Of a stretch of 64,000 bases of DNA, positions 2,987 to 48,262 are shown piece after piece. A program made the translations under genes and the position numbers. The DNA is from Gemmata massiliana (lineage in GTDB: Bacteria; Planctomycetota; Planctomycetia; Gemmatales; Gemmataceae). The stretch covers positions 248,001 through 312,000 of the forward strand of contig NZ_LR593886.1 of the NCBI RefSeq assembly GCF_901538265.1, in the 5' to 3' direction. How positions within the stretch are numbered: the first letter of the stretch is position 1; every line of letters begins with the position of its first letter. The notes under the pieces are model-generated. The model had not been told where the DNA came from and did no database searches. It was given only the letters and a program-made list of their open reading frames with translations.

Positions 2987-3706
2987 TTAGCCCGCGTACC
3001 GCGTGGGGTCGGGCATCTCGGCGTCGCGGAATCCGTGCTGACGTTCCGCGCACTTATTGCACGCCCCGCAGTGCAATCCGTTGACGGGCCGGAGGCACGA
3101 GAACGTGTGTTCGAGCGGCAACCCGCGTCCGCGCCGCAGCACATCCACCTTATGGAGCGCGGCGAAGGGGCGGAGTACGCGGACGCTCCCGTTCACGGCG
3201 GAACTCACGGTCGCCGCAAAGTTATCGTAGAACTGTGGGGTCGCATCGGGAAACGGGTTCGCGCCGAGCGGCGCGGTGGCGATCTCCGGTACGCCGTTCA
3301 GGTGGCACCAGAGGAGCGGCTTGGCGAGCAGCAGTACGTTGCGCCCGGGAAGAAACACGGCTTCGTCGGGTGAATCGGCGCCGGGCGCGCCCTCGCCCGA
3401 CACACTCCAGTGGGCACCGTACACATCGCGAATCGGTTCATCCAGGACGCGGAGTGGGCGAAGTGCTGGTGCGCGAACGGCTTCCAGGAAGCGATCGAGG
3501 TGTTCTCTCTCAACTTCTTCCCAGTGTAATCCGGTGCGAACGTAGAGCGGGAACACCGCGGGATACGCGCGAACGGCTTCGGCAAGCAGGATCGCGCTAT
3601 CGGACCCGCCGCTCACAAGAACGGCGAGTGCCGCGCGCGGATTGCTCGGCGGCCACGGCACACCCGCGGAGTTTTGGTCAGACGCCACGGTCACCGGCGC
3701 GCCCAC
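2987..3706 (-). CDS. queC: 7-cyano-7-deazaguanine synthase (QueC-like)
   Basis: A 239-residue PP-loop ATPase. The ATP pyrophosphate loop is VLVSGGSDSA at residues 29-38. The zinc site near the C-terminus reads CLRPVNGLHCGACNKCAER. FLPGRNVLLL is the family-typical central helix. QueC uses ATP and ammonia to turn 7-carboxy-7-deazaguanine into the nitrile preQ0. It sits directly upstream of queD on the minus strand, and no queE is in the window. Its start overlaps the end of the upstream zinc-ribbon gene by 16 nt. The PP-loop serine reads SGGSDS where most QueC proteins have SGGLDS. Confidence 0.88.
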   Translation of the reverse strand: MGAPVTVASDQNSAGVPWPPSNPRAALAVLVSGGSDSAILLAEAVRAYPAVFPLYVRTGLHWEEVEREHLDRFLEAVRAPALRPLRVLDEPIRDVYGAHWSVSGEGAPGADSPDEAVFLPGRNVLLLAKPLLWCHLNGVPEIATAPLGANPFPDATPQFYDNFAATVSSAVNGSVRVLRPFAALHKVDVLRRGRGLPLEHTFSCLRPVNGLHCGACNKCAERQHGFRDAEMPDPTRYAG

Positions 3707-5136
3707 TTGCGCCGACCTTTGGGCGGACGCCCGGGACCACCCGGAGGGCCACCGGGACCACCTGGGGGGCCTCCCGGAGGTCCACCACCGCCCCCACCGC
3801 CCGCTCGCCCCGTGACTTTGCTCGTGAGGCTGCTGATCGCGTCTTTGAGGTCGACAGTGTCGACCGCGGATTTGGCGAAGAAGAGTTCGCCCGACGAACC
3901 GAACCCAATGTTCGCAAGCATCTGTGCCCCGATCTTCTTGCCCATGCTATCGACTTGTTCCTTCCACCATTTCGGTGGCGTCCCTTCGTCACCCTTGCCG
4001 AGGTCGCTCTCTTTCCACTTCTTGGACATGTTCGACGACTTATCACTGTCGCCGCACCAAATAACGATCTCGAACCGGATCTCGCGGCTCCCGATGCTCG
4101 CCTTCCCCCCCGCGCCTTTTGCGCCACTGAGGGCGTCGGCTTGGGTGCGCCCGAACTGAGCGTTGGCGTCGTCGTTGTTTCCGCCCTGGGCACCTGAAGC
4201 TGCGGCCGGCGGCTTGTTCTCGCCCTGGAAGAGGGTCATCCCCCAGAACGTGCCTTTTGTGAGCCGTTTACCCAGCGTGCCGGCCCGGACACCGAACGTT
4301 TTGTCCCGGCTATCGGCGTGTCCGTTGAGCATCTTCTGAAACACGCCTTCTGGCACATCCGTCGAACAGAACGCGATCAGGCGGCTGGTTGGGGAGAAGA
4401 CGCGCACCTTGGCGCCCCCTCGGAACCCGTCGACGAGATAGTAGGTACCACTGCCAAGGGTCTTCTGTTGGGCGCCGGGCAATTTCCCGAGTTGGGTACC
4501 GTCGATTTCTGTCTTGGTGCGGATAACCGTAGCACCACCGTTCCGGATGGAGGTGCCGAATACGACGTACTCCATGAGCGCGTCGCCGTCGCTCGATCCC
4601 AGAACCCGCGCGAAGGCGTCGGCCGCGGCCTTGAACTCGGTGTTCTGGAACGTCCCCGAGAGGCTCTTGTAGAGTTCCGGATACTTTTGGGCGTGCCCCA
4701 GATTCAACCCCTGTGCCGTTTCGCAGTCCTCCGGGATGTAGTACATCATCTCGACGGATTTGGGCGTGCGCCCGAGGAGCCAGTACAGCATCCCGCCCAC
4801 GACCATGAGCATCACGAGCCCGATGCCGACCACGCCGAACAGGAGCACCTTGTTCGTCTCGCGCTTCTTGGCCTTGCGCTTGCGCGGGACGCTCGGGTCG
4901 GCTTTGAGCTTCGTTTTCTTCTTTTTTTCCTTCTTTTCACTCCGATCGCCGTCGTCCTCGTCGTCCCGCGCGGGCTTCTTCTTTTTCTTTAAAACTTCTT
5001 CTTCGCCCGCGTCTTCCGGTTCCGGCGCAGCGAACACGGTGCCGCACTTCGGGCACTCGACCTCGGTTCCGGCGTCGGGCGCCTCTGGCAGACGGAGTTT
5101 CGCCCGGCAATCCGGGCAACGGAGTTCAACGGCCAT
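3691..5136 (-). CDS. Zinc-ribbon single-pass membrane protein with Gly/Pro-rich tail
   Basis: A 481-residue protein of unknown function. A four-cysteine zinc ribbon (CPDC and CPKC at residues 7-31) resembles the MJ0042-type finger common in planctomycetes. A very Lys/Glu-rich linker (about 45-95) and one hydrophobic segment (about 97-122) follow. The rest is a large predicted extracytoplasmic domain without recognised motifs. The last 35 residues are almost only Gly and Pro and end in basic residues. The open frame runs 250 codons further upstream, but the zinc ribbon marks the real N-terminus at the ATG at 5136, and a divergent HD gene occupies the upstream DNA. The 3' end overlaps queC by 16 nt. 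Confidence 0.8.
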   Translation of the reverse strand: MAVELRCPDCRAKLRLPEAPDAGTEVECPKCGTVFAAPEPEDAGEEEVLKKKKKPARDDEDDGDRSEKKEKKKKTKLKADPSVPRKRKAKKRETNKVLLFGVVGIGLVMLMVVGGMLYWLLGRTPKSVEMMYYIPEDCETAQGLNLGHAQKYPELYKSLSGTFQNTEFKAAADAFARVLGSSDGDALMEYVVFGTSIRNGGATVIRTKTEIDGTQLGKLPGAQQKTLGSGTYYLVDGFRGGAKVRVFSPTSRLIAFCSTDVPEGVFQKMLNGHADSRDKTFGVRAGTLGKRLTKGTFWGMTLFQGENKPPAAASGAQGGNNDDANAQFGRTQADALSGAKGAGGKASIGSREIRFEIVIWCGDSDKSSNMSKKWKESDLGKGDEGTPPKWWKEQVDSMGKKIGAQMLANIGFGSSGELFFAKSAVDTVDLKDAISSLTSKVTGRAGGGGGGGPPGGPPGGPGGPPGGPGRPPKGRRKWARR

Positions 5137-5286
5137 TGGGAGGCACCAGCGCGGGCGGTGATATCGGACGACAGGTTCCAACTTTCCGATACTATCGGGA
5201 ACCACCGCGCCAGAGCAAGGGTGTACGCTCCAGTTCGTAAGAAGACTCGGCGCGGACCCGATTCGTTCCCCCCACGAGGTGCTTCC

Positions 5287-5850
5287 ATGACGCCCGCGGA
5301 CGTGCTGACCCGCATCGACCGATTGTTTGCCGAGCGCGGGGACGTTGAGTATCACGGCGAGGCGGTCACGCAGCTCGAACACGCGCTGCAAGCGGCCCAC
5401 TTCGCGGAACAGGACGGGCAACCCGCGGAGTGGATCGCTGCCGCCCTCCTCCACGACATCGGGCATTTCCTGCACGGCCACGGCGAAGACTACCTCGATC
5501 AGGGCATCAACGATCGGCACGAGGATCTCGGTGCGCGGTTCCTGGCTCACGCATTCGGGCCGGCGGTAACGGAACCGATCCGCTTGCACGTCCCCGCGAA
5601 GCGCTACCTCGCGAGCGGTAAGCACCCGGGCTATCCGGGGCTCCTCTCGCCCGCGTCCGTCCGCAGTTTGGAACTTCAAGGCGGGCCGATGACTGTCGCA
5701 GAAATTGGCGCGTTCGAGGCGCACCCGTACTTCGCCGCTGCCGCGAAGGTTCGCGAATACGACGATCGTGCGAAGATCGTGGGACTGGCGACGCCCCCGT
5801 ACTCGCACTTCCGCACCTACCTGGAGGCCACGCTCCGTGCCACCAACTGA
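5287..5850 (+). CDS. Phosphonate-degradation-associated HD-domain protein (PhnZ-like)
   Basis: A 187-residue HD-domain protein. Its metal ligands are visible as His32, His56-Asp57 (LLHDIGH), His60, His78 and His101. The motif YHGEAVTQLEHALQ at residues 22-35 carries the Tyr/Glu pair that in PhnZ closes over the mixed-valent di-iron site. PhnZ oxidatively cleaves hydroxylated 2-aminoethylphosphonate. The related family found in phosphonate operons has the same layout. ATG 5287 was preferred over an upstream in-frame ATG because GAGGTG precedes it and the family begins there. It overlaps phnX by 14 nt, so both probably act on the same phosphonate route. Confidence 0.82.
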   Translation: MTPADVLTRIDRLFAERGDVEYHGEAVTQLEHALQAAHFAEQDGQPAEWIAAALLHDIGHFLHGHGEDYLDQGINDRHEDLGARFLAHAFGPAVTEPIRLHVPAKRYLASGKHPGYPGLLSPASVRSLELQGGPMTVAEIGAFEAHPYFAAAAKVREYDDRAKIVGLATPPYSHFRTYLEATLRATN

Positions 5851-6646
5851 AATCAAGCTCGTCGTGCTCGACTGGGCGGGGACCACTATCGATTACGGGT
5901 GCCTGGCGCCCACCGGCGCGTTCGTCGAAGCGTTCGCCTCGAAGGGCGTCGACGTGACGCTCGCCGAAGCACGCGGGCCGATGGGGTTGCACAAGAAGGA
6001 TCACATTCGTGCGATGCTGCGAACGGAAATCGTTGGCGGCAAGTGGCGCGCGGCGGTGGGGCGCGACTGGGCCGAATCGGACGTGGAGGAACTCTACCGC
6101 TCCGTAACGCCGCTTCAGGTGGCCGCCGCGGAGAAATACAGCGGGCTGATCGCGGGCGTACCTGCGGTGGCGGACGCGCTCCGCGCGAAGGGGCTCAAGG
6201 TCGCCGCGAGCACCGGCTACTTCCACGAAGCCGCCGCGGTGGTGCGCTCGGCCGCGAAGCGCCAGGGGTTCGAGCCGGACTTCAACATCTGCGCGGACGA
6301 CGTACTGGCCGGGCGCCCGGCCCCGTGGATGATTTTCCGCTGCATGGAAACTCTGAGCGTGTACCCACCCGCGGCCGTCGTGAAGGTCGGCGACACGGTG
6401 ATCGACATCGAAGACGGCCGGAACGCCGGGTGCTGGAGCGTCGGCGTGATCGATTCGAGCAACGAGATGGGGCTGAGCGAAGCAGAATTTCGGTCGCTGA
6501 CGGAAACCGAACGGAACGCGCGCCGAAAGGATATCACCGAGCGCTACCAAAAGGCCGGCGCGCACGCGGTGCTTCACGCCATCACTGACTTACCGGCTCT
6601 GATCGGCGATCTCAACGCTCGTTTGGCTCGCGGCGAGCGCCCGTAG
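5837..6646 (+). CDS. phnX: Phosphonoacetaldehyde hydrolase
   Basis: A 269-residue HAD-superfamily enzyme close in length to characterised PhnX. The nucleophile is Asp12 in LDWAGTT. The Schiff-base lysine is at position 53 in GPMGLHKKDHI. The later HAD motifs appear as AASTGY and VKVGDTVIDIEDGRNAG. PhnX splits phosphonoacetaldehyde into acetaldehyde and phosphate. Translation probably begins at GTG 5837, inside the end of the HD gene, giving the family-typical N-terminus; an upstream open stretch in the frame is a shadow. No PhnW transaminase is in the window, so the source of phosphonoacetaldehyde must be encoded elsewhere. Confidence 0.93.
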   Translation: MPPTEIKLVVLDWAGTTIDYGCLAPTGAFVEAFASKGVDVTLAEARGPMGLHKKDHIRAMLRTEIVGGKWRAAVGRDWAESDVEELYRSVTPLQVAAAEKYSGLIAGVPAVADALRAKGLKVAASTGYFHEAAAVVRSAAKRQGFEPDFNICADDVLAGRPAPWMIFRCMETLSVYPPAAVVKVGDTVIDIEDGRNAGCWSVGVIDSSNEMGLSEAEFRSLTETERNARRKDITERYQKAGAHAVLHAITDLPALIGDLNARLARGERP

Positions 6647-6653
6647 ATATAGA

Positions 6654-6689
6654 CGGCCCGCGCGAGCGCAACACCGACTGCGCGGGCCG
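6654..6689 (+). terminator. Hairpin after phnX
   Basis: A 10-bp perfect stem (CGGCCCGCGC and its complement) with a 16-nt loop starts 8 nt after the phnX stop, followed by GTTTCTATCATTT. The position suggests a transcription end before the TauE-like gene. Confidence 0.5.
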
Positions 6690-6706
6690 GTTTCTATCAT
6701 TTCTGC

Positions 6707-7498
6707 ATGCTAATCGACTTCTGGACGTTCGCGTTCTTGTGCGTGTCTGCGTTCTTCGCGGGGGTAATGAACTCCGTCGCGGGCGGTGGCACGCTCCTCA
6801 CGTTCCCCGCACTCACCGCGCTCCTTACGCCTGCGATGGCGAACGCCACAAGTACCGTCGCGCTGTTGCCGGGATCGTTCGCCGGGGCGCTCGGGTACCG
6901 CAAGGAACTGTGGGAGTGCCGGCGGTTCGTGGGGCGCATGATCGTGCCGAGTATCGCGGGCGGGTTCCTCGGTGCGTGGCTCGTCGGCAAGAACGAGGAC
7001 ACGTTCGCGACGTTGGTACCGTGGCTCATTCTCACGGCCGCGGTGCTGTTCGTGGTGCAGGCTCCGCTCTCGCAGTGGGTGAAACAGCGTGCAATCGCCG
7101 AAGGTGCGCACACGGATCACCACGAGCCGAACGGTGTGACGCAGGCTCTTGTAATCGGTTTCCAGTTTCTCGTCGCGGTGTACGGTGGATACTTCGGTGC
7201 GGGGATCGGCATTCTGATGCTGAGCGCGCTCGGGTTCATGGGTGTGGGCGACATCCACCGTATGAACGCGGTGAAAACGTTTCTGGCAGCCTCGATCAAC
7301 GCCGCGAGTGTGGTGGTGTTCGTCCGCGACGAGCTGGTGAACTGGGAGTGTGCGGGTGTGATGGCCGTTGCCGCAATCCTCGGCGGCTACACGGGGGCGC
7401 GAGTCGCGCGCCGGTTGCCCGCGCGCTACGTCCGCTATTCCGTCATCGTGATTGGCTTCGGGCTGTCCGCGTACTACTTCGTCAAGAAGTTCGTGTAG
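6707..7498 (+). CDS. TauE/SafE-family permease
   Basis: A 263-residue integral membrane protein with about seven to eight hydrophobic segments. The duplicated family signatures are near the start (GVMNSVAGGGTLLTFPAL) and in the second half (YFGAGIGILML, then NAVKTFLAASIN). Members export or import small anions such as sulfite, sulfoacetate and other organosulfonates. Its place just downstream of the phosphonate genes makes an organophosphonate or its product a possible substrate, but that is inference. The 3' end overlaps the convergent P-type ATPase gene by 17 nt. Confidence 0.85.
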   Translation: MLIDFWTFAFLCVSAFFAGVMNSVAGGGTLLTFPALTALLTPAMANATSTVALLPGSFAGALGYRKELWECRRFVGRMIVPSIAGGFLGAWLVGKNEDTFATLVPWLILTAAVLFVVQAPLSQWVKQRAIAEGAHTDHHEPNGVTQALVIGFQFLVAVYGGYFGAGIGILMLSALGFMGVGDIHRMNAVKTFLAASINAASVVVFVRDELVNWECAGVMAVAAILGGYTGARVARRLPARYVRYSVIVIGFGLSAYYFVKKFV

Positions 7499-10400
7499 CC
7501 TTGAGGTTCGCCCATTTGGGCCAGAACCCGACCGCACGAACTCCCACTAAAAGACTCTCCGTCACCCACGTGCCGGCGAGCATTCCGGCGAGCATCCCGA
7601 GTGTCATTCCCACGAAACTGGTTGCGACCGCGGTGACCATGTTCTCCGTCTGAAACTGCATCGCGCACCAGCCCCCTGCGACCATTCCGACCACCATGCC
7701 GACGTTCCCACCCGTGTACATTGCGATCGCGTGGTCCGCGTTCGGTACGGGTCCGCGGCCCAACCAGCGCATCGCGATGTTCGCGAATACCAGCATCCCG
7801 ACCCACATCCACGGCTTCATCACGCCCTCGCGCATCGCCTCCACGCACGCACAGCACCCGTGGTCGTGAAGGGCGCCGAAGTCGTTATCGGCCCACCAGC
7901 CGAGCAGCATGCCCAGGTTGCCGAATGTGAGCATCCCGAAGCACATATCGGCCCAGTGCGGAACATCGAATCGTCGCCACGCGATCGCGAGCCAGCCTCC
8001 AGCCAGCGCGAACGCGGTGAGCGTGAATACGGCTGCGTCGGGCTTGCGCAACGACGACAGGAGTAGCACGAAGACGCCCCCCTGTAACGCGAACGCGCCG
8101 GCGTGGGCGAACAGGAGAAAGAACCTCTCCCCCCCCCTCTCCTTGCTCTCCGGCCCTGTCAGCGAAGCTTCTCGCGGGCCGGAGCACGGAGAGGAGCTTG
8201 AGGCAGAAGGTGGTGCGGGGGCGGCTGTATTTGGTTCTGTTCCCCCTTCCTTCCTAGGGAAGAGGGTTAGGGGGTTAGGTTGTGCCGATAACTCCTCCCC
8301 AACCCCTCCCCCAAGGGGAGAGGGGCTTAAAATCACTGCTGATTCTTTCTCCCCTTTCCTTTCAGAGGGGGTAGGTCTCGCCAAGTGCCCGCACCCCACG
8401 CGCGTGGACGAGAAGATCAGCGTGAGGCTCGACACCACCATTAGCACGGCCGCGACGACGGGGTGAAGTACCCCGCACGCGGCGAGTGTCATACCGACGA
8501 GGTTGTAGACCAGCGCGCGGGTCAGGTTCAGCCGCACGGCGCGGACCGCGTCGCGGCTGAGTTCCACGGCCCACGGGAGCACGCGGAGGTCCGTGTGGTA
8601 GAGAGTGACCGGAGCGGCATTAACGGCGAGATCGGTTCCGCTCGAAAGGGCCACGCCGACGTGCGCGACCGCGAGCGCGGAGGCGTCGTTGATCCCGTCC
8701 CCGACGAACAGCGGGTTCTCGCCCCTTTGTTTCGCCGCTTCGACGGCCGCGCGCTTATCGTCCGGGAGTAATCCTCCGCGTGCAGATGGAAGCCCAAGTG
8801 CCTCCGCGCGGCCGGTTACGTCGCCCGTCAGGATTTCGACCGGCAGGCCGAGTTGTTGCAACTGTTCGAGTGCTTGAGGAGTGGAATCGCGCAACCGTTC
8901 GGCGACGACCGCGGTCGCGGCAAATTCGCCATCAACTGCGACGAAAACGGCTTTGTTACCACTCTTTTCTGAAAGGGGCGCCGCAGAGTTTAAGGAGAGA
9001 CGCGGTGTCTGATTTTTCTCCCCCTTCCCTTCAGGGAGGGGGGCTGGGGGGGTAGGTTTTGCCCACCCCCCCACCCACTCTTCTGTCCCGATCTTGATTT
9101 CGTGTCGCGCCCCGTTCGCTTCGACGAGTTCCGCGATCACCCCGCAGCCCGGAATCGCCACGAGCGACGCCACACGCGGTTCCGTACCCGGTGCAAAATT
9201 CCGCGGTAAGTCGGCGAACGGTTTCGCGATCGGGTGGTTACTCTGCGATTGAGCGAGTGACAGCCAGCCGAGGAGCTTTGTGCGCTCGGAACCGGTCGCG
9301 GTTGTTTCGATGTCGACGAGCGCGAAGCGGTCTTCTGTCAGTGTGCCGGTCTTGTCGAACATTACGCGACCCACGGTCGCGAGGCGCTCGATGGCGTCAC
9401 CCCCGCGAACGATCACCCCGCGCTCAGCGAGTCGGTTGAGCGCGGACCAAATGACCACTGGCGTCGCCAAACCGATCACGCACGGGCACGCGACCAGCAG
9501 CACGGACATCGCGTTAAATAGGCCGGCTTCCCACCCAGCCGACGCGAAAAACGTCCAATATGCGAATGTGCCGACCGCTGTGAACGCCACCAACGGCAGG
9601 AACCACTGGCCGAGCCGGTCCGCGTGCCCCTGCAACGACAGCGGTTTGTCGCGTGCAGATTCCACGGTCGCAAGCAGTCGGTCGATTTCGCGCTCGGTGC
9701 CGCTCGCGGTCGCGGTGACGCGAAAGGTCGCGTCGAAAGATGCGGACCCGGCCACCACCCGGTCCCCCGGGCGCCGAACCACTGCGAACGGCTCGCCGCT
9801 TACGACGGTTTCCGACACGAAACCCGCGCCGTCGCGAACGACCCCGTCCACCGCGAACAACTCGCCCGGGTGGACCTCCACCACGTCCCCGGGGCGCACG
9901 TCCACAACGGGCGCGGTGCGCGTGCCGCCGGTGCCGTCGACCAAGCGGCACGTCGCGAGTTGCTCGCCCCAGGCGCGCGAACTCGCGAGCGCCGCGGCCC
10001 GTGATCGCGCCCCGATCACCTTGCCGAGCGTGTATACAACGAGCAGGACCGACACGACCTCGAAATAGATCTTCCCGCGCCCGGTGATTTGTGCCTGGAG
10101 CGACGCCCCGAGCGCGCCGAACATCGTGAGTAGGAACAGTGCCTCGATCGTGAGGCGCCCGCGGCGCAATTCCCGCGCTGCTGTACTGATGAGCGGACCG
10201 CCGAGGAGGACCACAACCAACATGGTGAGCGCGAAGACGAACCACTGCGTGAATTCGCGGATCACCGGCGGAACGTCGTCGTGTACGTTCAGCGCGAGGC
10301 CGAAAATCATCGACTGCCCGACAACGAGCACCCCGATTCCGAGTCGTAACCCGTCGAATCTGCCACTCTTGCCAGGAGCCGTTGCGTAGCACCCGGCGTC

Positions 10401-27755: not shown

Positions 27756-29203
27756 CTGTTCTTTCCGCAACATTCTGTATCTGAGGGGTTGACCGGCGAG
27801 GTGTAGACGGGTGCCGGCCCGTCCGGGACGATGGCGTTACCACACGTCCACCGACCCCGGACGGACTCGGCCACGCCATCATCGCATCCGCTTCCGACCT
27901 CGTGCCACTGGTTTTCCAGACGGGCCTCCGCCCTCGACCCGCGGTCGGCCCCGCGCCTGGCCGGGCTGCTCGTCGGGGCGATCCTGGCCCGCGGGCGGCG
28001 GACCGTCACCAGTTGGATCCGGGCGGGCGGGCTGTCGGACGCGTTCCGGCCGTGCGACACCACGGTCTCGGGCGCCGGGAAGCGGACGGACCTCATCGCC
28101 GCCCACCGGGCCCACGGCGTCGTCAAGCCGCTCGTGACCGGCGCCACCCGGCTCGTGTTCGCCCTGGATGACGCGCCGACCGAGCGGTACGGGCCGCACG
28201 TCCAGGGGCCGGGGCCCACCACAACCCGTGCCCCGGGCCGGCCAACGGCCCGTTCGTGTACGGGCACGTGTGGGTCGTCCTCGGCCTTCTCGCCGCCCAC
28301 CCGACGTGGGGCGCGATCGCCCTCCCGCTGCTGGCCCGGCTGTACGTCCGACAGAAGAACCTCGCGAGCATCGCCCCGAAGCACCGGCCGGCGTTCCGGA
28401 CCAAACTGGAGTTGGCCGTCGAGTTGGTGCGGTGGGCGAAGGTGTGGCTGGGCTTCCTGGGAAAGCCGGTGTGGGTGGTGGCCGACGGGGCCTACGCCAG
28501 GGCCGCGCTCCTGAAGCCTCTGATCGGGCTGGGGGTCGTGGTGGTCAGCCGGTTGCGGAAGGACGCGGCGTTGTGGGCGGTGCCCGTCGCGAGGACCGGC
28601 CGGCGGGCGCCCGCGGAAGTACGGGGAGAACCGGGTGTCGCTGGCGAAGCGGGCGGGACAGACGCGCGGGTGGACGACCGGGACGTTCGAGTTGTACGGC
28701 AAGCCGACCGAGAAGAGGTACAAGACGTTCGCGGCGCGATCCGTGTGGTCCTGGTGGACGAGCCGCGGGGGTGGGTGGCGTTCTTCTGCACCGACCCGAC
28801 CGCCACCGTAGCCGACATCCTCGGATGCGTGTCCGCCCGCTTCTCACGGGAGACCGCATTCCGGGCCTGCAAGAGCGTCGTCGGGGCGGGTCAGCAACAG
28901 GTCCGGTTCGTGTGGGCCAACGTCGGGTCGTTCCACCTGTGCCTGTGGGCGTTCACGATGACCGAGGCGTGGGCGTGGTGTCGGGGTGAGAAGGCGTTGG
29001 TGGGCCACCGGTTGGCCTCCCCGTGGGACGACGAGCCGCGGCGACCGAGCCACGCGGACAAGCGGCGGGCGTGGCGACGAGAGTTGCCGGGGGATGAAAT
29101 CCGGGCGGCTCTACACCCCGGGGCGAGCGAGCGGGAAATCCGGGCGGCCGCCGAACGCCTGCTCAACTTGGCCGCCTGACACAGAATGTCACGGAAAGAA
29201 CAG
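27756..29203 (+). mobile_element. Insertion sequence, IS4/IS701-like DDE element (1448 bp)
   Basis: The ends are 26-nt imperfect inverted repeats, 27756-27781 and 29178-29203, sharing CTGTTCTTTCCG and ACATTCTGT with about three mismatches. The identical hexamer TTATGG flanks both ends. The interior encodes one plus-strand DDE transposase whose frame is broken. The element lies at the left edge of an AT-rich accessory segment and splits a small ORF. Confidence 0.85.
27831..29179 (+). pseudogene. Decayed DDE transposase of the IS4/IS701 type
   Basis: Transposase homology runs through the whole region but changes frame three times. The N-terminal part with the first catalytic aspartates (LVFALDDAPTERYGPHV) is in frame 3 up to about 28205. 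It moves to frame 2 (HHNPCPGPANGPFVYGHVW, then VVADGAYAR). Around 28605-28745 the family-like text (PRKYGENRVSLAKRAG) is in frame 3. It then returns to frame 2 for FCTDP and the catalytic Glu motif FSRETAFRACKSVVG followed by QQQVR. Three shifts in about 550 nt mean the enzyme is probably inactive unless these are assembly errors. Confidence 0.8.
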
Positions 29204-29209
29204 TTATGG
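29204..29209. repeat. Target-site duplication, right copy
   Basis: TTATGG directly follows the right inverted repeat and is identical to 27750-27755. Confidence 0.75.
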
Positions 29210-29723
29210 GGAAGGCAGTTGTTGTAGATCACAAGAGGCTAAATGACGCCGATGAGTCTAAATTGTTATTTTATATATATAATATACGTTGATAGCTCAT
29301 TAAAAATTAGCGAATGGTGCGGAAACGAAAATAAATACTATCTTGCTGTTTGCACTTTGCTTGTATCGGCGCACAGTCTTTCATTTCCAGTGGTATCGCA
29401 AAGCGCAATAAAAAGATTGTTCGCGATAATTTGATTGATAATATGCATATTCTATCGCATAACAATAGTTAATTATAAATTATTGAACTCAGATAATATT
29501 AAATTTATACATGATATATAATAGTATTTTCCAGCATCACCATTCACACTTGAATGGGAAGTGATAAAACTGAATTCAAAATTCAAATGCCTATCACGCG
29601 TGGAGACAATGGTTCCGCTCGCGTTCCTACTTTTCTTCCTATTTCTCATGGTACTACCGTTTACGCTTCCCGCTGTATCTCAGAAACAATGATCACCCAT
29701 GAGAACCGCACGAAGGCAGCGTT
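29210..29723. other. Very AT-rich stretch without a convincing gene
   Basis: Apart from the end of the split ORF (to 29292), this region has many TATA/ATAT runs and by eye only about a third GC, against well over 60 % in the flanking chromosome. Two short frames (from 29243 and 29554) lack ribosome sites and family features. It may contain promoters for the three downstream genes. Confidence 0.55.
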
Positions 29724-30077
29724 ATGCTATGGGACGAATGGCGCCCTGGAAAAATTCAAAATAAGATTGAAGAGGCACTGTCTGTCGAGGAAAAGGCCCT
29801 TGACGCATATAGAGTTGAAAATGCGACCGACCAGCGGGTGAAAGTAATTGTTGACGACGAAAAGGAACGGATCGAATTCGTTCGCTCGGTTATCCAAAAA
29901 CCTTTCGCATCTGGTCCAATTGGCTGCCTTGCCGTTCTTTTTGTCGCAACAATCATCTTTGTCAGCATGACAACAGTACAGATTCTCGCGAACCAATATT
30001 TGTCGCGAATATCTATATCATATTATCTGTCATCATGCATAGCGTTTCCTATACTTGTGTGGCGGAGCATTTTTTAG
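29724..30077 (+). CDS. Small two-helix membrane protein of the AT-rich island
   Basis: A 117-residue protein of unknown family. Residues 1-55 are charged and predicted helical or coiled coil (IQNKIEEALSVEEKALDAYR, DDEKERIEFVRSVI). Two membrane segments follow (about 64-87, GPIGCLAVLFVATIIFVSMT, and about 97-113). The ATG is the first start after an in-frame stop at 29700-29702, with GAAGG upstream. Codon use is much more AT-rich than in the chromosome on both sides. It is the first of three same-strand membrane-protein genes with short spacers, so it may be part of one operon. Confidence 0.6.
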   Translation: MLWDEWRPGKIQNKIEEALSVEEKALDAYRVENATDQRVKVIVDDEKERIEFVRSVIQKPFASGPIGCLAVLFVATIIFVSMTTVQILANQYLSRISISYYLSSCIAFPILVWRSIF

Positions 30078-30127
30078 CACCCGCCACGCATTTGATGTGA
30101 AGGTGTATTTTTCCCGGCAATACGGCT

Positions 30128-30556
30128 ATGCCCTCCCAATACATAACAGACCTTCACGGGCCACTTTTCGCAGCCGCGCCATGCTTAGTGGAGCCGCCGT
30201 ATCGTGGGGCGGTCCCTTTTCTAGTAGCTTGGTTTATTACAAAATTCAATTTGTCACTCGCAACCTTACCGTATTGGGGTCTAATTCTCGGGAAAACAAC
30301 GGCAAGCATTGGATATCTGCTCGCAGGATATGTTGCTTGCCGAATGGCGAGAAAGAATCCCTGGAAGCATGTAATGATTCTTGTTGCTTTATTAATTGCC
30401 ACCTCGATATCTCAGTTCATATGTATCGCATTGATTTCAGATTTTCCTCCTTTAGATCGCGTAGAATTCACTAGTAGCCTCCTAGCCGAGATCGCGATGA
30501 AGTTTGTGGATACGACCGTGTTCGTGGCTCTCGGGGCGTATCTCTCTCTCAAGTAG
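30128..30556 (+). CDS. Polytopic membrane protein of the AT-rich island
   Basis: A 142-residue protein with about four hydrophobic segments: GAVPFLVAWFIT, YWGLILGKTTASIGYLLAGY, HVMILVALLIATSISQFICI and VDTTVFVALGAYLSL. No family is recognised; the spacing resembles small ECF-type or bacterial four-helix membrane subunits, which is only a resemblance. It lies 50 nt after the two-helix protein gene and 14 nt before the third gene, all on the plus strand. Composition is unlike the surrounding high-GC genes, which suggests horizontal acquisition. Confidence 0.6.
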   Translation: MPSQYITDLHGPLFAAAPCLVEPPYRGAVPFLVAWFITKFNLSLATLPYWGLILGKTTASIGYLLAGYVACRMARKNPWKHVMILVALLIATSISQFICIALISDFPPLDRVEFTSSLLAEIAMKFVDTTVFVALGAYLSLK

Positions 30557-30570
30557 CAGCTAACGCAGTA

Positions 30571-31494
30571 ATGCAGGGGCAACGTGCGCAGGCTCTGGTC
30601 CATGCGTGCATATTGTTCGCGCTCGGCAGTAGGATCTCAGGCGCCGCTTTAATCCCTCTTGAGGTGCTGCCAAGAGCGCACATTGAAGTCTTTCCCTATG
30701 TCATCCTGCTGTGCCTAGGAGGGAGGTGCGTGATCACGGCTCGGCGCACCTTTCATTCCATTCCTGCTGCCACTAACGACAATAGACAATTCGTTCTGCT
30801 TCTCCGCTCTTTCACTGATGATATGATGGCCATTCCGCACTCGTTTCTAGAGAAATTGAACACCGTCAGATTTACCTTGTCAATATGCAAAATTTACCGT
30901 CGTTTGTTTGAGGAGACTTTGGCTATCTACTGCAAACAATACGGTCCTATTATGGCTGCTGCCGATCCGCATGATGATCTTCCGACTCTCGGGTCGATCA
31001 AGTTTCGCATGAGTGAAAACTGGAGAGACTTGATTCTTGAGCGTTTCCGTGAGTCGCAGAGAATCATATTAATTGTGAACGATTCGCCGAGCACAGCGTA
31101 TGAAATTCAAAAAGTATTCGAGCTTGGCATGTTGGCGAAGGTGATATTTGTATTCCCTCCGACCGGCCCTTTTGATTCTCGCCTTCGCTGGCTATTCTTC
31201 CGAGAATTGGTTCGCACTACCACCCAATGCATGCTGCCTGAAAATATTCCCGAGAAATCACTTTGCTTCACGGCTACTGCTCAAGATTATCAAGTTCGCT
31301 TTTTTGGCTCACGCGGTTACAATAAATCCGCCTATGCATCAGCGTTATCGGAGGCATGGAAGAATCATGTACAATATATTAATAGCATTCGCGCATTTCG
31401 ATCATATCTGTCTGCAACAGTCGCATTTGTTGGTTATCACATTTATAGCCACATTTTTATGTCTGAATATTATTGCTTCAATATTATCTATTAA
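30571..31494 (+). CDS. Membrane-anchored protein with soluble alpha/beta domain, AT-rich island
   Basis: A 307-residue protein. Two or more hydrophobic segments lie in the first 55 residues. A soluble domain follows: FVLLLRSFTDD at about 73, FEETLA, GPIMAAADPHDDLPTLGSI, an ENWRDLILERFRESQRII helix-strand unit, then IVNDSPSTAYEIQKVFELGM and VIFVFPP. The alternation of hydrophobic strands and helices, with an S/T-rich loop followed by a conserved Glu, resembles a Rossmann-like TIR/SLOG-type ligand-sensing or NAD-acting fold. That is inference from pattern only. The C-terminus is again hydrophobic. It is the last gene of the three-gene island and converges on the TPR gene at 31541. Confidence 0.6.
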   Translation: MQGQRAQALVHACILFALGSRISGAALIPLEVLPRAHIEVFPYVILLCLGGRCVITARRTFHSIPAATNDNRQFVLLLRSFTDDMMAIPHSFLEKLNTVRFTLSICKIYRRLFEETLAIYCKQYGPIMAAADPHDDLPTLGSIKFRMSENWRDLILERFRESQRIILIVNDSPSTAYEIQKVFELGMLAKVIFVFPPTGPFDSRLRWLFFRELVRTTTQCMLPENIPEKSLCFTATAQDYQVRFFGSRGYNKSAYASALSEAWKNHVQYINSIRAFRSYLSATVAFVGYHIYSHIFMSEYYCFNIIY

Positions 31495-31540
31495 AATTGA
31501 AAATATTGCGATTGAATAAGCGATGCGGCGTTTCTGCGGC

Positions 31541-32614
31541 CTATTTTTGCTCGCTGCGCGGTTTGGCCGTCGGAGCATTCGGATCTACTACGACGGCCTT
31601 GGGCGAAACCGTTCGGAACGCCTTCTCGCTCTCGTACAGCTTGAGTTTCTCGCGGGCGCCGGCCCCGAACTTCTTCTCGTACTCCCGGTCCCCGAGCACT
31701 TTCCTCTGGTACTCGGTCGCCTTCGCGAAGTCGCCGGTTTCGGCGTAAGCGGCGGCGAGCGTTTCCAGCATCAGCGTTTCTCGGAACCCGGTCAGATCGC
31801 ACGCCTTCTTCGCGAGTTCGAGTGCGCGCTTGCCGTCCCGCACGATTGTGTCCGGGCACGTTGCCAGGAGCCACGCGAGGTCGTCCATCAGGAGCGGACT
31901 CGTGGGGTCGAGTCGGCCGGCTTCGGTGAAGTCCTGCGCGGCCAGATCGTAATCGCCTTTGCGCTGGTGGACGAGCGCGCGATTGCGCCACGGGGTGGAA
32001 TACTTCGGGTCCGACTTGATCGCCGCCGTGTAGTCCTCAAGGGCCGCGTCGAACTTGCCCTGGGACTCCAGCGCCACGCCACGGTTGTTGAGCGCGACCG
32101 AGTACCCGGGTTCCAGACGCAGTGCCTCTTCGTAATCCTTGATCGCGCCGTCCACGTCGCCCTTCGCCCGCCGCGCGCGCCCGCGTTCGACGTAGAGCGC
32201 GGAATGCGGATCGAGACCGATCGCGGCCGTCAGGTCTTCGATCGCGCCGTCGTTGTCCTTGTGGAAGACGCGCGCGACCGCGCGGTTGCGGTACGCCCAC
32301 GTGTCCTTGCCGTCGGCCTTGATCTTCTCGCTGAAGAATTTTTCGGCGTCGGCCACCCGCACCACTTCGGACTTCTTCACCTGACCGATGTACGGCCCGG
32401 GGTGGATGACGTGCCGGATTTCGAGCCACTCGCCCAAGTCGCGAACGACGGTGCCGGAGTAGGAGAACTCGCCGATGTTCTTACCCACCGCGTCGCGCAG
32501 CGGGAGCCGGTCTTTCACCGGGAAGACCATCTGACCGGCCCACTCACCGGGGCCGGTCGCGCAAGCAAAAGAGGGGGTTAAGCCAACCAGTACGAAAACC
32601 AAGAGTCGTCGCAT
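31541..32614 (-). CDS. Exported TPR-repeat protein
   Basis: A 357-residue protein with a signal peptide (RRLLVFVLVGLTPSFACA) and a beta-rich N-terminal module of about 70 residues (VVRDLGEWLEIRH, GQVKKSEVVRV). At least four tetratricopeptide repeats follow, for example GAIKDYEEALRLEPGYSVAL and DAALEDYTAAIKSDPKY. TPR arrays mediate protein contacts in the periplasm or envelope. ATG 32614 is chosen because it starts the signal peptide; the open frame extends 25 codons further without one. It marks the return to normal high-GC DNA after the island. Confidence 0.85.
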   Translation of the reverse strand: MRRLLVFVLVGLTPSFACATGPGEWAGQMVFPVKDRLPLRDAVGKNIGEFSYSGTVVRDLGEWLEIRHVIHPGPYIGQVKKSEVVRVADAEKFFSEKIKADGKDTWAYRNRAVARVFHKDNDGAIEDLTAAIGLDPHSALYVERGRARRAKGDVDGAIKDYEEALRLEPGYSVALNNRGVALESQGKFDAALEDYTAAIKSDPKYSTPWRNRALVHQRKGDYDLAAQDFTEAGRLDPTSPLLMDDLAWLLATCPDTIVRDGKRALELAKKACDLTGFRETLMLETLAAAYAETGDFAKATEYQRKVLGDREYEKKFGAGAREKLKLYESEKAFRTVSPKAVVVDPNAPTAKPRSEQK

Positions 32615-43570: not shown

Positions 43571-43641
43571 GGGCCGCGAGCCTTTTCGCTGGTCGCGTGT
43601 CCGTGCTTGTATGTTCGGCACCGACAACGCGGAGGTGGCCC

Positions 43642-44247
43642 GTGGGCGAGATGCGCAAAGAGTTCCTATCCGAACGCGACGACCTGTTCGTCGTTCACGA
43701 GTTCCTCTTGCCGGACGAGTGCGATTACTACATCGCGATGACCGAGTCCGCCGGGTACGGCGACGCGCCGATCACGACGATGAGTGGCCCCGTTATGCGG
43801 AAGGACATCCGCAACAACGACCGCGTGATGATCGACGACCCGCGGATCGCCGAAACGATCTGGGGCCGGCTGAAGGCGTTCGTACCGGAGCGCGTGCAGT
43901 TCTGGTTCCCGGTCGGGCTGAACGAGCGGTTCCGGTTCTACCGGTACGATCCGGGCCAGCAGTTCGACTGGCACTTCGACGGGGCCTACGAGCGCTCCCC
44001 GTTGGAGCGGAGCGCGTTCACGTTCATGATCTACCTGAACGGCGGGGTCGCGGGCGGCGCGACCGAGTTCAATCTGCGCTCCCACGGCGGAACGCGGAGC
44101 GACGATCCGATCGTGCGCGTGCAACCAGAAGCGGGCAAGGCGCTGGTGTTCCCGCACCGCATTTACCACCGCGGTGCTCCGGTCGCCGATGGGCGCAAGT
44201 ACGTGATGCGCACCGACATCATGTGCCGCTGGGCCGGTGGTGAGTGA
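43642..44247 (+). CDS. 2OG-Fe(II) dioxygenase, prolyl 4-hydroxylase-like
   Basis: A 201-residue double-stranded beta-helix oxygenase. Iron ligands appear as His-x-Asp in FDWHFDGAYER and the distal His in VFPHRIYHRGAPV, followed by the 2-oxoglutarate-binding basic residue in DGRKYVMRTDIM. Such enzymes hydroxylate protein side chains or small molecules using oxygen and 2-oxoglutarate. The GTG at 43642 is preferred because GGAGGT ends 5 nt upstream, giving ideal spacing; ATG 43651 is the alternative. Only 7 nt separate its stop from the convergent TOPRIM-like gene. The substrate is not evident. Confidence 0.87.
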   Translation: MGEMRKEFLSERDDLFVVHEFLLPDECDYYIAMTESAGYGDAPITTMSGPVMRKDIRNNDRVMIDDPRIAETIWGRLKAFVPERVQFWFPVGLNERFRFYRYDPGQQFDWHFDGAYERSPLERSAFTFMIYLNGGVAGGATEFNLRSHGGTRSDDPIVRVQPEAGKALVFPHRIYHRGAPVADGRKYVMRTDIMCRWAGGE

Positions 44248-44254
44248 TCCACTG

Positions 44255-44971
44255 TCAGCGGGTGAAGATGGGGACGAGAACTGTTTCGATCTCTTGGAGG
44301 AACTCTCGAAGTCCATTCTCCTCACCACGTTCGTGGAGCACCGCGAGAGCGGTGAGGCATTCGGCCTCTCGCTCCAAGTCGCCAACGACCAGCATACGCA
44401 GCACCCGCTTCGCGCTGCGCTTGTCGTTGTTCTCGTCGTGTTTGGCGGTCAATTCGTGCGAGCGCGTCCGTGGGTCGAATCCGAGAAACAACCTTTCTTT
44501 CTCAAACCGCTCGCGCTCGTCTTCGTCCTTTGGCTCGAAACCCGCGATGTGCCAGCACTCGCGCTTGGTGTGGGCCAACCCGATGATGACGGGGAACGGC
44601 CACGGCTCCGCGGCGCGGGCTTGGTGAAGTCCGTCGCGCCGGTCGAGGTCGTTATCCGAATCGCGAATGAGCAACACCGCGTCTGGCTTGGGATCGAGAC
44701 GATTAAATAGGATGAGCGCTCGCATCGCACTGTGTGCGTCGGGCGATGCCGGAAGGCCGTTGATAAAGCCGACGATCGATACGTTATTCGTGATCGCCAT
44801 TGTCTTTACGTCGCGCCAAAGTAATTGCGGGTCGTCGGGCTTGTACCCGCGGAACTGGAGGTACTCCGGTTCCAGCCAATCCACAGCGTCGCACGCGACA
44901 CGGGTCGTGAGCGCGATTGCGGTTCGTCGATCGGCCGGTGCTTCGCAGACAAGGGCGATGGACCAACTCAT
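44255..44971 (-). CDS. TOPRIM-like (DUF4276/DUF4435-class) protein, partner of OLD-like ATPase
   Basis: A 238-residue protein. The N-terminus IALVCEAPADRRTAI places a Glu where TOPRIM proteins have their catalytic glutamate. AVLLIRDSDNDLDRR near residue 120 supplies a D-x-D motif, and ECWHIAGF recalls the conserved Glu-Trp region of DUF4276 proteins. TOPRIM domains in such partners cleave nucleic acid. The ATG overlaps the stop of the ATPase gene (ATGA), so the two are translationally coupled. This pairing is the layout of OLD/PARIS-like defence systems. The family assignment is by motif only and no full similarity was computed. Confidence 0.6.
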   Translation of the reverse strand: MSWSIALVCEAPADRRTAIALTTRVACDAVDWLEPEYLQFRGYKPDDPQLLWRDVKTMAITNNVSIVGFINGLPASPDAHSAMRALILFNRLDPKPDAVLLIRDSDNDLDRRDGLHQARAAEPWPFPVIIGLAHTKRECWHIAGFEPKDEDERERFEKERLFLGFDPRTRSHELTAKHDENNDKRSAKRVLRMLVVGDLEREAECLTALAVLHERGEENGLREFLQEIETVLVPIFTR

Positions 44972-46077
44972 AGCGCGACCGGCGTAGGTTGGGGTTGTTC
45001 GGTTTGTGGCTTGTCGAGTTTCTTCACCCAATCATCGCCGATGTGACTCCAAAATTCCCCGGGCGTCATCGCCTCCCGCCAGCGCTCGACTTCGGGGTGG
45101 TCTTCGAGCCGCGCACAAATAGCTGAGCCGTCATCGCTCAATCCTGTCACCCGCACTTCATTCCACGCAAGTTGGTTCAAAATGTACGGTGAGTGCGACG
45201 TTGCGATGATCTGGAGATCGGGGAATTGAGTCAGCAGTTTACGGAGCACGCCGACCAATTCCATCTGCGCCTTCGGATGTAAGCCGTGGTCGAGATCGTC
45301 GAACAAAATCACACGGGGGCGGCGAGGACCGAGGATTACTGTTAAGAGACCGAGTAAGTAGAGTGTTCCGTTACTTGCAAAGTTCGAGCGAATGCCTCGG
45401 CCGCCACTAAAATCAAATAACAACACCTTATTTGTCCCTGTACCACTCTTTACCTCGTCAAACCGAATGTGCTCAACGTTCGGAATCAGACTGCGGAAAT
45501 TTGAAACTATTTGTGCAAATTGCTCCGGCTGGTTGAGAGCGAGGTAACCTAACGTGGCGGCGAGTCCCGATCCATTCGGTTGTACGTTTGGTGGCATTAA
45601 TTCAGGCTGTACGCTGTCTGCTAACGCGATTGCATCGAGTCGCAGAAACACCGTTTCTCCAAAAGCGTCTTTGAAAAGTTCCAGTTGGGGTTGATTGATT
45701 GGGAGTGGTTGATTTTGTCCTGCACGGATGATCTGGAATGCTAATTGACGTTTGGTGCGTGGTTGTCTCGCTCCGGCTCCAGCCGCGTCAGACGGCAGAA
45801 TCTCAAATCGAATTTCTTCGCCATCTTTTCTTAATGCAGCCACAACTATCTGGAATTCCGATGAATTTGTACCACTTGAGATAAGATGGCGAATCTCTTG
45901 CAAAACATGGTTTACGGCGCCCGGGTTACGATTCGCTTGGGCGAGGAGTCCAATCCCCTGAAGCACGCTCGTCTTCCCGCTCCCGTTCGGGCCGACCAGC
46001 ACCGTGAGCCGCGAGTCGAACGTGATTTCCACGTCACGCAGCGCCTTGAAGTTCTGAAACTTCGCCCGGTGAATCAT
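44968..46077 (-). CDS. OLD/RecF-like AAA ATPase (AAA_21 type)
   Basis: A 369-residue ABC-class ATPase. Walker A is [15 protein letters not shown] at residues 27-41, after the typical lead [15 protein letters not shown] degenerate signature is [13 protein letters not shown]. Walker B is [15 protein letters not shown] and the switch histidine is in [14 protein letters not shown]. These ATPases sense or act on DNA ends in defence and repair, usually with a TOPRIM nuclease, here the coupled downstream gene. The middle of the gene (about 45350-45900) is visibly more AT-rich than its neighbours, consistent with recent transfer. It is divergent from uvrB across about 95 nt. Confidence 0.87.
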
Positions 46078-46171
46078 CGCAAGCCCCCAAACCCCTACTG
46101 ACCTTCCGTTCCCCGGTCCAATAGCGTTACGCTACCAATTCTTTCTCGCGCGATCCACCGGAGACGAGACG

Positions 46172-48262
46172 ATGGCCGCCAAGTTCCAGCTCACCAGCCA
46201 GTACGCCCCCGCGGGCGACCAGCCCAAGGCCATCGAGCAACTCACGCAGGGCTTCGCTAACGGCAAGAAGGTGCAGGTACTCCTCGGCGCCACCGGGACC
46301 GGGAAGACGTTCACCGCGAGCTGCATGATCGAGAAGCTCCAAAAACCCACACTCGTCCTCGCGCACAACAAGACGCTTGCGGCGCAGCTCTACAAGGAGT
46401 TCAAGGGGTTCTTCAAGAACAACGCGGTCCACTACTTCGTCAGCTACTACGACTACTACCAGCCCGAAGCGTACATCCCGCAGCGCGACATCTACATCGA
46501 AAAAGACTCCTCGATTAACGAGAACATCGACCGACTCCGGCTCGCCGCGACGTCCGCGCTCGTGAGCCGCGAAGACGTCATCATTGTGGCGAGCGTCTCG
46601 TGCATTTACGGTCTCGGTAGCCCGTCCGATTACAAGCGAATGATGGTCTACATCCAGAAGGGCGAGACGCTCGATCGCGACAACACGCTCCTGCGGCTCA
46701 TCGACGTCCAGTACAAGCGCAACGACATCGCGTTCGAGCGCGGGACGGTCCGGGTGCGCGGCGACACCATCGACGTGTGGCCCGCGTCCGAAGAGTTCGC
46801 GTACCGCATCGAGCTGTTCGGCGACGAGGTCGAAACGCTCTCGGTCATTCACCCGCTCACGGGCGAGACAATTAAACCGCTCGACGAACTGTACATCTAC
46901 CCGGCCAAACACTTCGTCACGCCCGAAGAGCGCGTGCAGGCGGCCGTGAAGGGCATCGAAGACGAACTGAACGCCCGACTCGAACAGTTCAAGAACGAGG
47001 GCAAGATTCTCGAAATGGAGCGCCTTAAAGCGCGCTGCCGGTACGACCTCGACATGCTCCGCGAGGTCGGCTACTGCTCGGGTATCGAGAACTACGCCCG
47101 GTGGTTCAGCGGGCGCGCGCCGGGCGAGCCCCCGTACACGCTCATCGACTTCTTCCCCGAAGATTTCCTGCTCGTCGTGGACGAATCGCACGTCACACTG
47201 CCCCAAGTGCGCGGGATGTACTTCGGCGACCGCAGCCGCAAAGAAACGCTCGTCGAGCACGGGTTCCGGCTCCCCAGCGCGCTCGACAACCGGCCGCTCA
47301 AGTTCGACGAGTTCGAGGGCCGGATGAAGCAGTGCCTCTGCCTCTCCGCCACCCCAGGCCCCTACGAACTGGAGAAAGTCGGCGGTGAGGTCGTCGAACA
47401 GGTCATTCGCCCGACGGGGTTGGTCGATCCGGTCATTCACGTCAAACCCGCACGCGGACAAGTGAAAGACCTGGAAGCGGAAGTGCGCGCCCGCGCCGCG
47501 AAGGGCGAACGGGCGCTCGTTACGGTGTTGACGAAGCGCATGGCCGAAGACCTCACGACGTATTTCCGCGACGCCGGGATGCGGTGCAAGTGGTTGCACT
47601 CGGAACTCGACGCCATCGAGCGCATCACGGTGCTGCGCGAGCTGCGCGAGGGACAATTTGATGTACTCGTCGGCGTGAACCTGTTGCGCGAGGGTTTGGA
47701 CCTCCCCGAAGTGTCGCTGGTCGCGATCCTCGACGCGGACAAGGAGGGGTTCCTCCGGTCCGACAAGTCGCTGATCCAGACGATGGGCCGCGCCGCCCGG
47801 AACGTGAACGCGGAGGTTGTGTTGTACGCGGACGTCGTGACCGACTCGATGAGCCGCGCGATGAACGAGACGAACCGCCGGCGCGTGATTCAGCTCGCGT
47901 ACAACGTGGAGCACAATATCACGCCGACAACGGTGAAAACGGCGATCAAGAACGAGATCGAGGACGAGATCGAAGCACACCAAATGGCGCAGGCCGCCGC
48001 GACCGGCAGCACTGCCGCGGCGGAAGACTACGTGACAGTCGAGTACGTGCAGAGCCTCTACGAAGAGATGCTCGAAGCTGCGAAGACATTGGATTTCGAG
48101 CGCGCTCAGGCGCTGCGCGACCAGATCGTGAAGCTCGAAGGCGAACTCAAGAAGAAGCACGGCACCGCGGCACCGCCGAGCGTCCTAGGCAACAAGAGCG
48201 TTCCCGTGAGCCAGCCGGCGGGCGCCAAGCGCAAGTCGAAATGGAAGAAGGGCGGAGCGTGA
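46172..48262 (+). CDS. uvrB: UvrABC system protein B
   Basis: A 696-residue excision-repair helicase. Walker A is [15 protein letters not shown] near residue 37. The damage-probing beta-hairpin is [20 protein letters not shown]. Walker B is [11 protein letters not shown], and helicase motif VI is [19 protein letters not shown]. The C-terminal UVR motif ([17 protein letters not shown]) contacts UvrC. It verifies lesions handed over by UvrA and loads UvrC in nucleotide excision repair. The tail of about 40 residues after the UVR motif is Lys/Ala/Ser-rich. It is complete and shares no operon with the neighbouring minus-strand ATPase gene. Confidence 0.97.

Follow-up and report, generated by a model that had tools for sequence, protein, structure and literature searches.

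In the PARIS system, the ATPase AriA keeps AriB sequestered as long as no phage trigger has bound (PMC11455837 and the accessible part of PMC12409363). According to the accessible sections of PMC11341690, the PARIS genes ariAB lie inside the BREX operon of Salmonella D23580, and the phage protein Ocr binds and inhibits the BREX methyltransferase PglX. Neither Ocr nor its homologue Gp5 activated this embedded PARIS, which was also inactive against the phages tested (same source); even in Salmonella, a guard role is thus not established. OLD-ABC ATPases with TOPRIM or other nucleases adjoin or sit inside BREX as backup effectors, as far as the available text of PMC12839542 describes them, and diversification of sensors by diversity-generating retroelements in multicellular bacteria is the subject of PMC10907252. 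How OLD-type defence ATPases recognize infection, and how this recognition diversifies, is largely open.

Here, we analyze an ATPase gene and its partner gene from Gemmata massiliana, located in a stretch of 64,000 nucleotides that we refer to as the window. A defence role is the best reading of the pair. Judging from its sequence, we consider it probable that the pair is a split-OLD anti-phage system in which the ATPase holds the partner, a trigger binds the ATPase middle, and this middle is exchanged by recombination.

A gene pair beside uvrB

The pair is encoded on the minus strand and flanked by uvrB and a 2OG-Fe(II) oxygenase gene, in a genome consisting of a single contig of 10.1 Mb (Table 1). 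A sequence-only reading of this DNA had reported both open reading frames, their ATGA overlap and the slot between the two flanking genes, and all of these were confirmed. No promoter was found in a scan, and terminators are near chance level. The AT-richness of the ATPase gene, also pointed out in that reading, is real, yet localized to part of the gene: the GC content is 0.603 for residues 1–42, 0.488 for residues 43–230 and 0.554 for residues 231–369, with 0.603 in the partner gene and 0.64 in the whole window. A second low-GC island (0.46–0.52 vs 0.64) is present at window positions 29001–32000; two plus-strand ORFs in or near it, 30571–31494 and 31523–32581, have no Pfam match.

Table 1. 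Features of the ATPase/partner locus in window coordinates; the last row refers to another genome.
Feature	Position	Strand	Remarks
ATPase gene, 369 aa, OLD/ABC type	44968..46077	-	AAA_21/AAA_15; top PADLOC model HEC-01A; model pLDDT 91.7
Partner gene, 238 aa, TOPRIM-like/HEC-01B-like	44255..44971	-	invariant E10, D14, D104, D106, R137, E138, W140
ATGA, ATPase stop/partner start overlap	44968..44971	-	
ATPase N-terminal end, constant, residues 1-42	45952..46077	-	93-98% aa identity, four same-site alleles
Walker A GPNGSGKT, ATPase residues 29-36	45970-45993	-	inside constant N-terminal end
ATPase middle module, exchanged, AT-rich, presumed sensor, residues 43-230	45388..45951	-	
Signature-like motif ASNGTL, ATPase residues 234-239	45361..45378	-	
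Walker B VILFDD, ATPase residues 256-261	45295..45312	-	second acidic residue Asp, 43/43 members
ATPase C-terminal part, constant, residues 291-350	45028..45207	-	switch His and invariant H327, G340, W343, W350
uvrB	46172..48262	+	flank common to congeners
2OG-Fe(II) oxygenase gene, other flank	43597..44247	+	directly adjoins uvrB in the empty site of G015
Partner remnant in L025 (G012:C1:6628000-6642000)	about 6965-7264		

The ATPase adjoins uvrB in four congeners, one of them cut by the contig end. In genomes G012 and G016 the pair lies beside uvrB genes that are 97% and 93% identical to that of the window, and in G003 the start of the ATPase is beside uvrB, with the rest beyond the contig. 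A presence/absence comparison in related genomes, proposed in the sequence-only reading, revealed a patchy pair and an empty site: in G015, 135 bp separate the stop and start of the neighbouring oxygenase and uvrB genes. uvrB is present in 17 of the 19 genomes of the genus; a tblastn search upstream of it (0.75 to ~8.5 kb) in 12 of the 14 remaining uvrB-bearing genomes detected no pair except for G003. The uvrB of G009 is 99% identical, and similarity to the window ends near 46089, just outside the ATPase start. In G012, the oxygenase gene is located away from uvrB; 66 aligned residues from the C-terminal part of the partner remain next to it, which points to rearrangement at the site.

Pairing and distribution

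An ATPase ORF is found directly upstream of the partner in 43 of 50 non-redundant partner-like loci, 40 of them assigned by domain distance (including two distant DUF4276-like loci) and three, L033, L043, and L049, by ORF coordinates. This disposes of the objection that ATPase homologues might never pair with such a partner. A four-base overlap, measured to the start of the partner domain, occurs in 21 of the 50 loci, so that the ORFs are not paired by chance. Three loci carry broken pairs (L062, L065, and L067, where the partner contains a stop). In L065, the N-terminal part of the ATPase runs in frame into the partner (9053–10384) and the C-terminal part is gone, probably through a deletion in this broken copy. 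No ATPase is seen in the other four loci: L024 ends at a contig edge, L025 is a remnant, L071 is a short weak match, and the partner of L069/L190 has no ATPase in the 2.3 kb upstream.

The partner is present in 40 loci of the genome collection, mainly from Planctomycetota and Myxococcota, and its distribution in these phyla is patchy. It was detected in 10 of 59 relatives, a count that missed G003 with only the ATPase start on its contig, and in 8 of 392 genomes of the phylum; the window genome is counted in both. No homologues were found in viral contigs, and tblastn searches of 72,556 plasmid and 50,697 phage records gave no match to the pair.

The ATPase

The ATPase scores 109.1 bits for AAA_21 and 79.2 bits for AAA_15. 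Its top PADLOC model is HEC-01A (PDLC04182, E 2.1e-32, a model given no curated cut-off), and AriA is the third-best (E 1.9e-29). PtuA structures are nearest by both sequence and fold, with PtuA-type defence ATPases heading the Foldseek list; weak RecF/RecN matches cover the P-loop region. The sequence-only reading had described Walker A, Walker B, and the switch histidine as intact. This holds for Walker A and for the histidine, H295, and has to be qualified for Walker B, which is there with Asp following the Walker B Asp in every family member. Glu occupies this position in 22 rows (21 genes, since L089 and L105 are one gene) of other OLD-type ATPases from control loci, collected with a pattern that accepted either acid. 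In ABC ATPases, this position usually holds the catalytic base, Glu, so that slow ATP hydrolysis is a plausible property of the window ATPase.

The partner protein

The window partner, P0001, has no family match in Pfam (E ≤ 1), PADLOC (E ≤ 10) or NCBIfam. Seven residues are invariant in an alignment of 37 rows, which comprises P0001 plus 36 of the 40 loci and omits four that are truncated or broken. Among them are the N-terminal glutamate and the DxD motif already singled out in the sequence-only reading. In TOPRIM domains, a conserved Glu follows strand 1 and a DxD motif follows a later strand. In our model of the partner (pLDDT 97.1), strands are formed by residues 3–9 and 98–104, with E10 after the first and the DxD motif after the second, placing E10 and D104/D106 at the TOPRIM motif positions. 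A Foldseek search of the PDB with this model returned no match at E ≤ 0.001. Structure comparison gave 6nk8_A, the OLD C-terminal region, at Z 7.2 over 173 residues and 5.2 Å, tied with unrelated folds; the OLD TOPRIM domain appears only among these tied Rossmann-like folds, and Argonaute MID and lumazine synthase folds score higher. The predicted structure fits a TOPRIM fold at its motif positions, short of proving it. A PDB sequence search with the partner profile gave a single hit, at chance level.

HEC-01B is weakly matched by 20 of the 37 family members (best E 4.1e-5), P0001 itself not being among them. In profile comparisons, the partner family and a HEC-01B-matching set are related with a probability of 91–94, a score of 50–57 and P of 1e-6 to 1e-7, over an alignment spanning only about partner residues 1–148; 20 column shuffles scored at most 16.5 and a reversed profile 18.9. 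The HEC-01B set, some of whose members match HEC-01B only weakly, comprised 17 rows chosen by motif at first and then 20 of 23 loci chosen by strand. Against a DUF4276 core of 11 rows the probability is 2.2, and against 27 mixed rows 79; the link to the DUF4276 core is thus weak, and it is the HEC-01B-like link that counts. A first DUF4276 set of 13 rows (probability 36.5) was dropped as poorly chosen. The first profile also retrieved two distant relatives that match DUF4276, L070 above the cut-off and L072 below it. The partner profile does not match an alignment of five AriAB TOPRIM tails, obtained from five of six loci (L128 gave none).

Relation to known systems

We provisionally assign the pair to HEC-01, a PADLOC candidate system composed of HEC-01A and HEC-01B, on the grounds that the ATPase matches HEC-01A best and the partner family is profile-related to HEC-01B. 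It differs from HEC-01 in that its Walker B ends in DD instead of DE or EE and in that P0001 itself has no HEC-01B match. Elsewhere in the window's genome, a separate OLD-type ATPase gene immediately precedes that of a canonical DUF4276/HEC-01B protein (G000:C1:2324615-2325238; L089, L105).

The pair resembles PARIS, which is OLD class 4, in being split into two genes, an ATPase and an E...DxD partner. Some of its relatives are located inside BREX, as ariAB is in Salmonella D23580 (PMC11341690, accessible sections). The AAA_21 and AAA_15 scores of the ATPase exceed the PARIS thresholds of 27 and 32 for AAA_15/AAA_21; the partner, unlike a PARIS effector, has no DUF4435 match (threshold 27; thresholds from the available part of PMC9122126), and its family has no AriAB-tail match. 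The missing DUF4435 match carries limited weight, since the DUF4435 score is just 20.9 bits even for L126, which matches AriAB strongly (E 2.4e-111). The PADLOC AriAB search, positive in 142 of 149 genomes and in 14 of 14 controls, mostly through short P-loop stretches, served only to find L126. PARIS is further characterized by a phage anti-restriction protein as trigger and by tRNA cleavage. The pair is not classed as PARIS.

PtuA of Septu and retron I-A provides the closest solved sequences and folds for the ATPase, and its partner is the HNH protein PtuB, in contrast to the TOPRIM-like partner here. In Gabija, GajA joins ATPase and TOPRIM and is accompanied by the helicase GajB, whereas the window has separate genes with uvrB and the oxygenase gene as neighbours; the pair falls outside the Gabija definition. 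The proposal that the partner is neither a standard AriB nor a standard GajA and represents a distinct subtype is therefore borne out, with HEC-01 as the nearest system. The broader proposal of an OLD/PARIS-like anti-phage architecture is favoured by the regular pairing with an E...DxD protein and by the BREX context of some loci, with the TOPRIM fold as its unproven element. Among the family and classifier checks that had been suggested with it, DUF4435 gave no match, HEC-01A came out best for the ATPase, and the link to the DUF4276 core is weak. The BREX backup effectors that combine OLD-ABC and TOPRIM belong to the same general class; the available text of PMC12839542 contains no description of the present partner family, of DUF4276 (0 occurrences) or of an exchange of the ATPase middle. 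The general class is already known, and this partner family was not found named.

BREX context

The pair is located within a BREX operon, with a gene order like that of type I, in 6 of 47 loci, two of which (L016 and L023) share one genome. PglX is upstream and PglZ downstream of the pair in L016, L021, L023, L038, and L047, presumably the slot that ariAB occupies in Salmonella D23580. In L056, whose contig starts within the ATPase, PglZ is downstream; fragments of PglX are all that L043 and L046 show upstream of the pair. PADLOC names BrxB, BrxC, PglZ, and BrxL in L038, and PglX and PglZ in L016. In L021, PglX and the ATPase form one ORF of 1470 aa, positioned at 3575–7987 of this locus (L021/L048) on a MAG contig of 127 kb. 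Judging by the fusion and the position between pglX and pglZ, the BREX methyltransferase may be what the sensor monitors in some relatives. The window copy lies by itself, outside BREX: it occupies the uvrB site rather than a place between pglX and pglZ, and one PglZ query, run without a positive control in that genome, had no match in the window genome.

Exchange of the ATPase middle

The same-site alleles share 93–98% of ATPase residues 1–42 and about 25–27% of residues 43–230. Between the window and G012, the amino acid identity is 0.95 at the N-terminal end, 0.25 in the middle, 0.87 in the C-terminal part, and 0.89 in the partner. By residues, 40 of 42 are identical in 1–42, 10 of 77 in 43–136, 36 of 92 in 137–230, 46 of 60 in 231–290, and 59 of 60 in 291–350, against 212 of 238 in the partner. 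The 3' limit of the exchanged part is not sharp, because similarity returns slowly, until about residue 290 (45208).

Codon usage at the identical residues points in the same direction. The same codon is used at 35/39 positions in residues 1–42, 3/10 in 43–136 (1/7 under another alignment, on which these counts depend), 12/36 in 137–230 (15/46 for 43–230), 20/45 in 231–290, and 39/54 in 291–350; the partner retains 142/205 and uvrB 534/658. Vertical descent under selection on the amino acids would keep the codons, so that identical middle residues with different codons argue for replacement by a distant homologue. The contrast between middle and partner has a Fisher p of 7e-6 for window–G012 and 4e-5 for G012–G016. 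It is weaker in more distant pairs, being weak for window–G016 (p 0.025), where the middle shares 17/51, residues 291–350 22/48, and the partner 89/172. Diversification of the middle by point mutation was also considered, and the codon test argues against it.

Phylogenies of the two parts disagree. In the partner tree of 17 rows, the window, G012, and G016 cluster together (95/87), and a grouping of G016 with L027 is rejected (AU p 8e-6). In the middle tree of 18 rows, which has long branches, G016 groups with L027 (98/97) and the clade of window, G012, and G016 is rejected (p 1.2e-5), while window with G012 alone is not (p 0.34); the clades put to the AU test were picked after the identities were known.

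In every one of the 903 pairs among the 43 family members, the middle is more divergent than either end. Middle identity tracks that of the partner loosely (Spearman 0.34, compared with 0.38 for the N-terminal end and 0.52 for the C-terminal part), with medians of 0.21, 0.42, and 0.39 at partner identities of 0.3–0.4, 0.6–0.7, and 0.7–0.8. The three complete same-site alleles have middle identities of 0.25–0.27, and fairly conserved middles exist in some pairs (L016–L023 0.78, L028–L033 0.52). In a small control of 11 DUF4276-paired ATPases, the two pairs with partner identity above 0.6 have middles at 0.56 and 0.61. Within this control, L074 has middles (0.62–0.63 with L083 and L080) more alike than the C-terminal parts (0.47–0.50) and partners (0.37–0.41), a hint of module shuffling among these ATPases too.

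A second site is provided by seven myxococcal loci in which the pair is beside an ABC-F gene, the ABC-F proteins of the other six being 90.3–99.6% identical to that of L032. Between L032 and L051, this protein is 99.6% identical with the same codon at 503/538 positions, and the ATPase identities (same codon) are 0.95 (35/39) for residues 1–42, 0.18 (5/14) for 43–136, and 0.54 (13/56) for 137–230. The partner identity is 0.71; the partner being far more diverged than ABC-F, more than the middle recombines at this site.

Taken together, the sequence comparisons indicate that the ATPase middle, the presumed sensor, has been replaced by recombinational exchange between related bacteria at the same chromosomal site. 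This modifies the earlier view of horizontal transfer of an AT-rich ATPase into the slot: the ATPase is AT-rich, but it occupies the same site in four congeners and its AT-rich part is the exchanged middle. Carriers of the window middle number 5 of 294 genomes, its own included, the best with 40% over 75 residues, and the donor was not found among them. In type I restriction, the target-recognition domains of HsdS are exchanged. The ATPase resembles HsdS in having a putative specificity part swapped between conserved ends at a fixed locus, and differs in that the protein concerned is an ATPase, whose exchanged part is bounded by Walker A on one side and the signature motif on the other. In the titles and abstract openings of the literature that we searched, an exchange of the ATPase middle was not found for PARIS, HEC-01 or OLD systems.

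Discussion

On this reading, the two genes would form a split-OLD anti-phage system whose closest match is HEC-01 and whose layout is that of PARIS. In uninfected cells, the ATPase may form a multimeric scaffold that keeps the partner inactive. The variable middle (residues 43–230) would be the binding site of a phage product, plausibly a blocker of restriction or BREX, and this binding would alter the ATPase so that the partner is released. As a metal-dependent nuclease, the partner would then cut tRNA or another nucleic acid and stop the infected cell. The pairing, the invariant acidic residues, the BREX embedding of some relatives and the replacement of the middle are read directly from the sequences; from these we infer complex formation, the trigger, nuclease activity, the abortive outcome and trigger binding by the middle. 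For this last role, analogy with PARIS makes the middle the best candidate. Homologous recombination through the conserved ends would swap the middle, allowing one locus to gain new trigger specificities while keeping its effector.

The pair could alternatively be an ordinary divergent HEC-01 pair of the DUF4276 type, with a middle that evolves fast under relaxed or diversifying selection and is not exchanged. The HEC-01A match of the ATPase and the relation of the partner profile to HEC-01B would fit such a pair, a middle less conserved than the ends in all pairs may be normal for a segment lying between ATPase motifs, and the conserved middles of L016–L023 and L028–L033 agree with it. We nevertheless regard this as unlikely, given same-site alleles with 97% identical uvrB and a middle at 25% with mostly different codons, the grouping of the G016 middle with L027 against the partner tree, and control middles well above both the family medians at comparable partner identity and the same-site values.

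The type IV (AbiEii) label of AAA_21 in Pfam and the two overlapping genes might also point to a toxin–antitoxin module kept by addiction. This is very improbable in view of the plasmid and phage records without a match, the relatives embedded in BREX, and the finding that in PARIS either gene can be deleted without toxicity (PMC9122126, accessible part). Even less credence is due to a housekeeping or DNA-repair accessory of uvrB, a RecF/SMC-like ATPase with a nuclease, to which the adjacency in four congeners and the weak RecF/RecN matches could be ascribed: the pair was not found in most congeners, the site is empty in G015, other loci are in BREX or beside ABC-F, and the pair is on the strand opposite uvrB.

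The split-OLD anti-phage system remains our preferred reading. A more tentative extension, which we find possible yet somewhat doubtful, is a modular innate immune receptor, in which a fixed locus retains its effector and the ends of the ATPase and swaps a sensor cartridge (residues 43–230) by homologous recombination to respond to strain-specific triggers and the BREX-embedded or PglX-fused forms guard PglX. Same-site alleles that differ mainly in the ATPase middle are in effect natural domain-swap experiments, which highlight a candidate recognition region in an OLD-type defence ATPase and predict that swapping the middle would change the phages that are sensed.
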